Source of the DNA: Peristeroidobacter agariperforans
Lineage (GTDB): Bacteria; Pseudomonadota; Gammaproteobacteria; Steroidobacterales; Steroidobacteraceae
Assembly (NCBI RefSeq): GCF_004138335.1
Contig: NZ_RYFW01000001.1
Location: 434,001 to 498,000 of the forward strand
Reading direction: 5' to 3'
Length of the DNA: 64,000 nt
Numbering within the stretch: the stretch's first letter is position 1; every line of letters begins with the position of its first letter. Positions 28,954 through 30,527 of the stretch are shown here, one piece after another. The notes under the pieces were generated by a model that was given only the letters and a program-made list of their open reading frames with translations, was not told where the DNA came from and did not search any database. The translations under genes were made by a program, and so were the position numbers.

Positions 28954-28983
28954 CGGGGTCGTCGACATCCTTCGACGACCCCG
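28954..28983. terminator. 12-bp perfect hairpin just after the FAA-hydrolase gene
   Basis: CGGGGTCGTCGA pairs perfectly with TCGACGACCCCG around a 6-base loop (CATCCT). It begins 5 bp after the stop at 28949 and lies between two convergent genes, so it could stop transcription from both sides. There is no T-run on either strand, so termination strength is uncertain. Confidence 0.5.
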
Positions 28984-29032: not shown

Positions 29033-30286
29033 TCACTTCCCCTTACGCGGCTTTTTCGCCGCCTTCTTCTTTCCCCCTGAGCGCGTCTTGCTCTTGGCCG
29101 CGGCTTTTTTCTGGGCGCCTTTTTTCGCGCCTTTTTTCGCCGCGGTCTTCTTGCTGCCGGCGGTCTTACCCGCCGACTTCTTGCTCGACTTCTTCTTGCC
29201 ACCCTTCTTCGCGGGTGCCTTGCCCGGCGCTTTCTTGGCGGGTGCCTTCTTCTTGGCAGGCGCCTTCTTCGCCGGAGACTTCTTCGCGGGCGCCCGCTTG
29301 GCCGGAGCTTCCTCAGCCGGGGCCTCTGCGGGCGGAGCTTCCTTCGGCGGAGCCTTCTTCGCAGGCGCTCGCTTCTTGGCGGGCTTCTCAGCCGGAGCGG
29401 CGGGCGGCGTTTCGACCGGCGGCGCCTGCTCTTCAGCCGGCGTTTCCGGATCCTGCACGACCGACGGCGGCGTCTCGGTATCGAGTTTCAACTGTTCAGG
29501 CTTCACCTTCTTCTCCTTCTTTTCTGATTTCTTCATGTTCGCCGCCGTGGCATGGGCCGCGAACATCGCGCCCTGCGGGTCGACGGCTTGTACGATCCAG
29601 TCGCCGCCCGGCACTTCCATCGGGCCATTGATCACCTGACCGCCGGCGGACTTCACTTTCTTGGCGGTCTGGTTCACGTCCTTGACGTGCACATAGCTCA
29701 ACCAGTTCGGGCTCGGCCCGCTCTTCATGGTCATCATGCCGCCGAACGGCACGTCGCCGAAGCCGTAGATCAGATACTTGCCCATCGGCCCCATGTCGTG
29801 CTCGACCATATTCTCCCAGCCGAACAGGGCGGAGTAGAAGTCGAACGCGCCCTCGTGGTCGGTGCTGATGAGCTCGTGCCAGGAATGCTCGCCTGGCTGC
29901 GGTGGCGTGATCTTGCCGTAGTCTTCGGCGGATTCATACAGACCGAACTTCGCGCCATAAGGATCTTGCAGCACCGCGTGGCGGCTGCCGCTGGACATCG
30001 TGTCTACATCCTTCACGACCGAGCCGCCCTTGCTCTTTGCCAGCTCGATGGTCGCGTCGATATCGCCGGTGCCAATGTATGGCAGCCAGTGCGGGGCGGA
30101 ACCGTTGCCTGCAACGGCGGCGCCGATCGGGCCGCGCTGCGCGGCGAACATTACGTAAGCAGCATCCTCTTCCCAGGGCTGGGGCTTCCAGCCGATCGCC
30201 TTCCCATAGAACGCATGGGCGGCATTGGCGTCCGGCGTCACCAGCTCATGCCAGACGAATCGTCCACGGACACTCTGATCTGCCAT
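29033..30286 (-). CDS. Two-domain VOC/glyoxalase-like protein fused to a histone H1-like basic tail
   Basis: 417 residues. Residues 7-120 and 131-245 are two vicinal-oxygen-chelate domains (RFVWHELVTPDANAAHAFYGKA; HSWHELISTDHEGAFDFYSALFGW), the double arrangement seen in CFP-32/hydroxylase-like glyoxalase proteins. After residue 250 an acidic, proline-rich linker leads to a tail (301-417) made almost only of Lys, Ala, Pro, Gly, Ser and Thr with repeats of the KKAPAK type: 42 lysines in 117 residues. Such tails bind DNA in AlgP and bacterial H1-like proteins. A metal-dependent enzyme tethered to nucleic acid is inference; the tail could also bind RNA or another acidic polymer. No signal peptide, so cytosolic. 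Confidence 0.9.
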   Translation of the reverse strand: MADQSVRGRFVWHELVTPDANAAHAFYGKAIGWKPQPWEEDAAYVMFAAQRGPIGAAVAGNGSAPHWLPYIGTGDIDATIELAKSKGGSVVKDVDTMSSGSRHAVLQDPYGAKFGLYESAEDYGKITPPQPGEHSWHELISTDHEGAFDFYSALFGWENMVEHDMGPMGKYLIYGFGDVPFGGMMTMKSGPSPNWLSYVHVKDVNQTAKKVKSAGGQVINGPMEVPGGDWIVQAVDPQGAMFAAHATAANMKKSEKKEKKVKPEQLKLDTETPPSVVQDPETPAEEQAPPVETPPAAPAEKPAKKRAPAKKAPPKEAPPAEAPAEEAPAKRAPAKKSPAKKAPAKKKAPAKKAPGKAPAKKGGKKKSSKKSAGKTAGSKKTAAKKGAKKGAQKKAAAKSKTRSGGKKKAAKKPRKGK

Positions 30287-30527
30287 CGCGATCTCCCTCG
30301 ATGAACTTTGTTAGGTAATCAAGCGGTCGAATCAAGAGACGTTCGTTGGCGGCTGAGCATACTCCGCTCGTTGGCGCAAAAGTAGTCAACACTCGATCGA
30401 CGATCTCACATTGCACATTTGCTTCATGCGATGCGCACGCGAGCCGCCGCAGACTTGCCAAAAAATGGCGATGAGGTACAACAGCACGCCAGGAATTCCA
30501 CCCTCATCGCAGCAAGACACGGATCTC

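Follow-up and report, generated by a model that had tools for sequence, protein, structure and literature searches.

Within the window analysed here, a 64,000-nucleotide stretch of the Peristeroidobacter agariperforans genome, one gene joins two VOC (glyoxalase-type) domains to a lysine-rich C-terminal tail resembling that of histone H1. The question raised by this locus is whether the fusion is genuine and, if so, what a tail of this kind does on an enzyme fold. H1-like tails are already known in bacteria on nucleoid proteins, topoisomerase I, Ku and granule organisers; in the open-licence literature we found no report of a VOC protein, or of an adenylate kinase, that carries one.

The gene and its reading frame

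The interval proposed by the sequence-only reading proved right, and the gene lies on the minus strand, with its ATG at 30286 and its stop codon at 29035-29033 (Table 1). Its neighbours are CstA, a histidine-phosphatase gene in divergent orientation and an FAA-hydrolase-family gene in convergent orientation. A promoter scan gave no consensus site, and comparison of 17 loci and the window revealed no operon partner and showed gene neighbours to be common to the near genus only. The host genome (7.65 Mb in 17 contigs, 97.9% complete) holds one tailed VOC copy and one tailless paralogue of 233 aa, 31% identical.

Table 1. Features of the VOC-tail locus, in positions of the window
Feature	Position	Strand	Basis or remark
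Whole gene, VOC-VOC-tail protein, 417 aa	29033..30286	-	Reading frame, Pfam, orthologues
Two VOC domains, residues 1-249	29540..30286	-	Mean AlphaFold pLDDT 94; Rv0577 (3oxh) as best relative with a solved structure
Residues 250-300: short basic start (NMKKSEKKEKK) and Pro/Glu-rich linker, net charge -3	29387..29539	-	
Residues 301-417: H1/AlgP/PhaM-like tail, predicted disordered	29036..29386	-	
Terminator-like hairpin, 12 pairs, 3' of the gene, before the convergent FAA-hydrolase gene	28954..28983	-	
Ribosome-binding-like AGGGAG, 6 nt upstream of the ATG	30287..30300	-	Sequence reading

The two VOC domains previously placed at residues 7-245 were recovered by Pfam as Glyoxalase (PF00903, E 4.5e-14) and Glyoxalase_6 (PF18029, E 9.9e-10), and the count of 42 lysines in a 117-residue tail is exact for residues 301-417. 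The net charge of this segment is +42, and that of the VOC part -11; measured from the end of the VOC part, the tail comprises 168 aa and 50 lysines. Taking the lysine frequency of the VOC part as the expectation, the binomial probability of at least 42 lysines in 117 residues is 3e-24. Three PAKKA motifs can be read in the tail, and inexact tandem repeats occur in its DNA, their periods (15 bp among them) lying in the range of 12-33 bp. In the full-length AlphaFold model the block means of pLDDT are 39-52 from residue 261 onward which, taking low pLDDT as a stand-in for disorder, is in keeping with a disordered tail. Composition and low pLDDT together give the segment the character of H1-like tails of the AlgP, PhaF and PhaM type, that is, of a long disordered C-terminal region rich in lysine, alanine and proline.

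The G+C content at third codon positions is 0.82 in the VOC part and 0.76 in the tail and, when the tail is compared with each of four near relatives, more than half of the base differences fall at codon position 3. The nearest relative, with which the tail alignment has 6 gapped columns, differs 16 times at position 3, once at position 1 and 5 times at position 2; the three that follow show 40, 72 and 70 differences at position 3 beside 14+11, 31+32 and 16+13 at positions 1+2. The third-position G+C content and the position-3 bias of the differences argue that the tail is translated in this frame and is under selection. Together with the presence of the same fusion in relatives, the third-position bias bears out the single frame without frameshift that had been read from the letters, and both a frameshift and the misjoining of two genes can be ruled out. 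Chance low complexity is ruled out by the binomial probability, by the rarity of such tails in the genome and by label shuffles on the tree (see below).

The tail among relatives and on the VOC tree

A search of 150 Steroidobacteraceae-like genomes, host included, yielded a VOC match at E 1e-3 in 76, and we took as close family orthologues those of the 42 genomes with a match at E below 1e-49, our own gene among them. The objection that homologues might end near residue 250, foreseen in the sequence-only reading, fails for this set: 41 of the 42 continue into a K/R/A/P-rich tail, and in the 42nd (L017) the contig ends before any tail. In L019 the K/R-rich tail itself ends at a contig end. Among the close relatives read, no intact tailless orthologue was seen scattered between tailed ones.

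Conservation of the fusion, which that reading had left to be checked, is thus real for the close family orthologues and does not extend to most of the more distant relatives. The best 80 of 538 loci from a genome-collection scan were examined; the nearest named relatives among them are Peristeroidobacter soli (92% identical over the VOC part) and Steroidobacter gossypii (84%). Fifteen of the 80 carry the tail, including loci from Acidobacteria (L042, L058) and Gemmatimonadetes (L047, L059, L086, L098), while the other 65, most of them from rhizobia and allied bacteria, stop no more than a few residues from the end of the VOC part.

Searches around two of these genomes extended the picture. 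Among 298 genomes around that of L059, 92 had a match at E 1e-60; one locus was read from each of 30 of the 92, and 8 of these 30 are tailed (L158, L160, L162, L164, L167, L170, L171, L178; L164 is the same gene as L059). Around the genome of L058 (297 genomes, 26 with a match), the tail is found in 5 of 26 loci (L188, L189, L197, L198, L199; L197 is the same gene as L058). An order search of 196 genomes, with a match at E 1e-40 in 37 and 30 loci read, gave a single tailed copy outside the host family, in G244 (L116, identical in sequence to L036), and in a class-wide sample of 369 genomes, 15 of them with a match at E 1e-30, the tail was present in our own genome and in G003 only. Many tailed copies of other phyla lie on short contigs of metagenome bins, and their phylum labels are less sure than their sequences. 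We speak of a conserved subfamily in which an H1-like tail is joined to a VOC enzyme fold, in genomes labelled as three phyla.

Two further observations concern the C-terminus of this group. One Gemmatimonadota genome (G675) holds both a tailed (L086) and a tailless (L174) VOC copy. Two related VOC proteins from the class-wide sample, L148 and L149, have a C-terminal extension that is membrane-like and not basic, and the VOC group may be prone to C-terminal additions.

The tail was suspected to vary in repeat number, and its length does vary: over 55 tailed rows it measures 34-202 aa, with a K+R content of 17-59% (median 38), two of these rows having been classed as tailed by hand (L160, with 34 aa, and L019, with 17% K+R and running to the contig end). 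Its net charge in the same rows is +15 to +73, and that of the VOC part -21 to +2; F, W, Y, I, L, M and C together make up about 1% of the tail, and at least 5 acidic residues occur in 11 of the 55. Selection appears to keep the charge and composition of the tail, not its sequence. With a folded part of about 250 aa and so many natural length variants, the subfamily offers a compact system for testing tail function.

The history of the tail was followed on trees of the VOC part, all built by short searches and without bootstrap. From 213 loci, 212 gave a profile match and 186 distinct rows had enough coverage. A 121-row tree comprised the 56 tailed or contig-end rows and 65 of the 128 tailless ones, L148 and L149 being left out; a 172-row tree left out the same two together with 12 tailless rows scoring under 200. 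On the 121-row tree the tail changes twice, and 54 tailed rows plus L017 form one clade (SH-aLRT 97), with L199 outside; a constraint holding all 56 rows together reached a likelihood above that of the free search and was not rejected (p-AU 0.686). On the 172-row tree there are 4 changes, when 50 label shuffles gave a minimum of 41 and a mean of 46, and one clade of 53 (52 tailed rows and L017) contains no known tailless row; L020, L086 and L199 are tailed singles outside it. In these two better trees no loss of the tail was seen inside the main clade. This clustering implies that the tail is old, or that it has spread together with its gene.

A FastTree of 192 rows that includes far paralogues gave 5 changes and mixed tailless rows among tailed ones. 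With L078 as the root, all tailed rows except L199 fall into a clade that comprises, at its smallest, 82 rows, of which 21 are tailless or have another extension, besides the contig-end L017. Of those 21, 13 are far paralogues or near that range; others (such as L168, L172 and L177) are near relatives.

The folded part and its ligand positions

Modelled alone, the VOC part reached a pLDDT of 94, and its best Foldseek match was Rv0577 (3oxh; TM 0.83, E 1.4e-21), which also has two VOC domains in one chain and matches by profile at E 1e-61. Together with the two Pfam domains, this makes the protein a member of the two-domain, Rv0577-like VOC superfamily. The next-best Foldseek match was AbxF, an antibiotic-biosynthesis enzyme. 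Thirteen tailed members were scanned, and in all 13 KbpA was the sole NCBIfam hit with an E-value of 1e-5 or lower; nevertheless our protein scores 80.8 bits against the KbpA equivalog model (NF053614), whose cut-off is 250. Neither relative shows such a tail: the KbpA model has 231 positions, and the 3oxh chain has 282 aa with the match running to 281, although this chain may be a trimmed construct.

The glyoxalase I model of NCBIfam (TIGR00068) gives 16.7 bits against a cut-off of 120. The metal ligands of E. coli glyoxalase I, which we take to be H5, E56, H74 and E122, are not kept. When counted without gaps from the ends of the 1f9z alignment (profile 16-127, chain 10-128), the ligand-aligned positions hold W12/W136, L68/L196 and G115/A243 in domains 1 and 2, and the strands that would carry an E56-like residue (52-59 and 179-186) contain no D, E, H or Q. 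The presence of W, L, G and A at the ligand-aligned positions makes a glyoxalase I reaction unlikely. Of the detoxifying or ligand-binding domain suggested by the sequence-only reading, glyoxalase detoxification is thereby weakened, and a ligand-binding domain or metal-free enzyme is the half that stands better. With its mildly acidic charge and without the canonical VOC metal ligands, the VOC part would act as a ligand-binding domain or as a non-classical converter.

Both tryptophans, W12 and W136, are kept throughout the 116 rows compared, and we infer a ligand pocket lined by tryptophan. At residue 13, 89% of 54 tailed rows have His and 81% of 62 tailless rows have Tyr, so that a change at the beginning of domain 1 may have accompanied the acquisition of the tail. 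His245 is likewise commoner in tailed than in tailless rows (87% versus 65%).

Tailed adenylate kinase and the probable partner of the tail

The rarity of such tails was assessed in 357 crudely called genes of at least 100 aa, taken from 20 stretches of 20 kb of the host genome plus the window. Two of the 357 have at least 30% K+R in their last 60 residues: the VOC-tail gene and an adenylate kinase (P0002, Pfam ADK). Querying the host genome with the tail, an insensitive test in which 150 of 405 candidates were scored, gave no second tail at E 0.01. The host adenylate kinase (L230:5879-6946; G000:C10:105879-106946) ends in a 105-aa H1-like, K/A/P-rich C-terminal tail, the same kind as that of the VOC protein.

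An Adk match was obtained in 88 of 100 family genomes, and a K/R-rich tail of 55-227 aa is present in 35 of the 63 copies read. Of the 89 matches listed, 26 were unread: 24 lie in frames of at most 248 aa, which leave no room for a tail longer than 35 aa, and the others are that of G015 (at a contig edge, counted as tailless in the co-occurrence) and a second copy in G042. A tailed Adk occurs in 17 of 24 VOC-tail genomes versus 17 of 64 others (18 of 64 once G084 is added), an odds ratio of 6.7 with a Fisher p of 2e-4 when kinship is ignored. Seven of the 24 VOC-tail genomes are without a tailed Adk; in one of these, G005, the protein ends in a basic stretch of 33 aa. A tree of 63 rows requires 8 changes of the Adk tail, against 2-5 for the VOC tail on larger trees. 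The tail is a module, firm on the VOC subfamily and loose on Adk.

According to the available excerpts of the sources cited in this section, several basic-tail systems bear comparison with ours. AlgP has a disordered, K/A/P-rich KPAA region of 154 aa; KPAA peptides bind DNA in vitro, and the protein is located on polyphosphate granules and required for their spacing (PMC9239181). In PhaM, lysines of the PAKKA motifs serve to fix granules on the nucleoid; the PhaF tail is unfolded until DNA binds (PMC9049629). More generally, lysine-rich low-complexity regions are found in many DNA-binding proteins (PMC6821194), AAKK/AKKA motifs are used as H1-type DNA-binding motifs (PMC10665949), lysine-rich C-terminal extensions have been linked to non-specific DNA binding (PMC6821194, PMC10665949), and the lysine-repeat tail of topoisomerase I to processivity (PMC7398561). 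Our protein shares a K/A/P-rich C-terminal region with AlgP of Pseudomonas aeruginosa, PhaF of Pseudomonas and PhaM of Cupriavidus, and PAKKA motifs with PhaM; it differs in that their N-terminal parts, as far as those excerpts describe them, are helical, phasin-like or membrane-type granule binders, and here the tail follows a VOC pair. It also resembles actinobacterial topoisomerase I, mycobacterial Ku and HupB, in which a folded protein is likewise extended at its C-terminus by a lysine-rich segment. These three have DNA as their own substrate or partner, whereas to our knowledge no DNA role is known for the VOC domain pair of this group.

We propose, with a probability of about 0.55, that the protein is a metal-free, Rv0577/AbxF-like VOC module, ligand-binding or catalytic, which the H1-like tail would hold on the nucleoid. 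It belongs to a distinct and conserved subfamily of two-domain VOC proteins with a polycationic C-terminal tail that is predicted to be disordered. This tail would anchor the folded domains on the nucleoid through non-specific electrostatic contacts, as reported or proposed for AlgP, PhaF and PhaM, and at the DNA the VOC part would most likely bind, or convert without a classical metal centre, a small compound, perhaps reactive or aromatic. That the tail is kept in close relatives while its sequence and length vary suggests that it pins the protein to DNA or another negatively charged polymer. These data establish the joined VOC-tail protein, how it is conserved and composed, the predicted disorder of its tail and the absence of the metal ligands; binding of DNA or of polyphosphate by the tail, DNA as the polyanion, tethering as the purpose and the nature of the ligand are what we infer. 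Several points count against it. DNA, RNA and polyphosphate are all possible partners of a polycation, AlgP has been reported from polyphosphate granules, and the second tailed protein of the genome, adenylate kinase, does not work on DNA. Furthermore, none of the neighbours (CstA, histidine phosphatase, FAA-hydrolase-family) hints at DNA damage or detoxification, and the FastTree mixes tailless among tailed rows.

The strongest of the alternatives, although on balance we doubt it, is that the tail targets polyphosphate or storage granules and not DNA, the VOC protein and the tailed adenylate kinase both being granule-associated enzymes. The greater frequency of tailed Adk in VOC-tail genomes would fit this, but that figure ignores kinship, seven of those genomes do without a tailed Adk, and the Adk tail, unlike the VOC tail, changes repeatedly on its tree; we also know of no link between VOC domains and polyphosphate. 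A granule target is argued for by AlgP, which has an H1-like KPAA tail, is reported to reside on polyphosphate granules and is required for spacing them (PMC9239181), and by the identity of the only other tailed protein among the 357 genes, since adenylate kinase has been coupled to polyphosphate-dependent AMP phosphorylation in vitro (title cited in PMC8776046); the tails of PhaF and PhaM, which are linked to DNA (PMC9049629), argue the other way.

It is improbable, to our mind, that the tail lacks a specific partner and either binds RNA or ribosomes or promotes condensates with whatever polyanion is at hand. Such a role would suit a tail whose sequence and length are unconstrained and whose charge and composition alone are kept, and K/R-rich low-complexity regions also occur in RNA-binding and ribosomal proteins (PMC6821194, excerpt), yet nothing in our analysis favours RNA specifically. 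A classical metal-dependent glyoxalase I that detoxifies methylglyoxal beside the DNA is very improbable. Glycation of DNA would explain why such an enzyme is anchored there, and the VOC fold and distant matches to glyoxalase I chains point the same way; the low score of the NCBIfam model, the residues at the ligand positions and the composition of the E56-like strands are all at odds with it. We give least credence of all to the tail being an almost neutral outcome of slippage at repeats in a gene rich in G+C. The tandem repeats of its DNA and a length that varies, with gapped columns even against the nearest relative, are what slippage would leave, but they are outweighed by the retention of the tail in the close family orthologues save the unreadable 42nd, by the 53-row clade without a known tailless row, by the third-position bias of the differences and by the rarity of such tails among the sampled genes.

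Anchoring at the nucleoid, our preferred reading, would point to protection or sensing carried out locally, at the chromosome. If bacteria with a tailed VOC subfamily also have a tailed adenylate kinase, the implication would be an active placement of metabolic enzymes on DNA or polyphosphate. In a wider and tentative extension, which we would sooner expect to fail than to hold, the H1-like tail would be a portable address label in some bacteria, Steroidobacteraceae above all, holding metabolic enzymes (the VOC protein, adenylate kinase and perhaps others) on nucleoid or polyphosphate as a local enzyme layer; such a layer would be the bacterial counterpart of chromatin-bound metabolic enzymes.

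Other basic proteins of the host genome came to light in pattern searches. A first search returned one short basic protein with an AAKKKTAKKK-type C-terminus (L157:1039-1593). A looser DNA pattern, for KKAxKK, gave 12 matches versus 4 for a reversed-pattern control, leading also to a SET-domain protein with basic ends and to two small basic proteins; the remaining matches are not tails or are out of frame. The SET-domain protein (L241:895-1530; G000:C10 near 714038-714484) has K/R-rich N- and C-terminal ends. It was considered as a writer on the tail, since a lysine tail would suit it well as substrate, and rejected: SET genes occur in 90 of 100 family genomes (1 of 14 control genomes), far more than tailed VOC genes do, and the link is unspecific. 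The two small proteins, L239 (G000:C9 near 1991735) and L242 (G000:C10 near 1662628), are very basic and lysine-rich with KKK-type ends, and one may guess at a nucleoid role for them.
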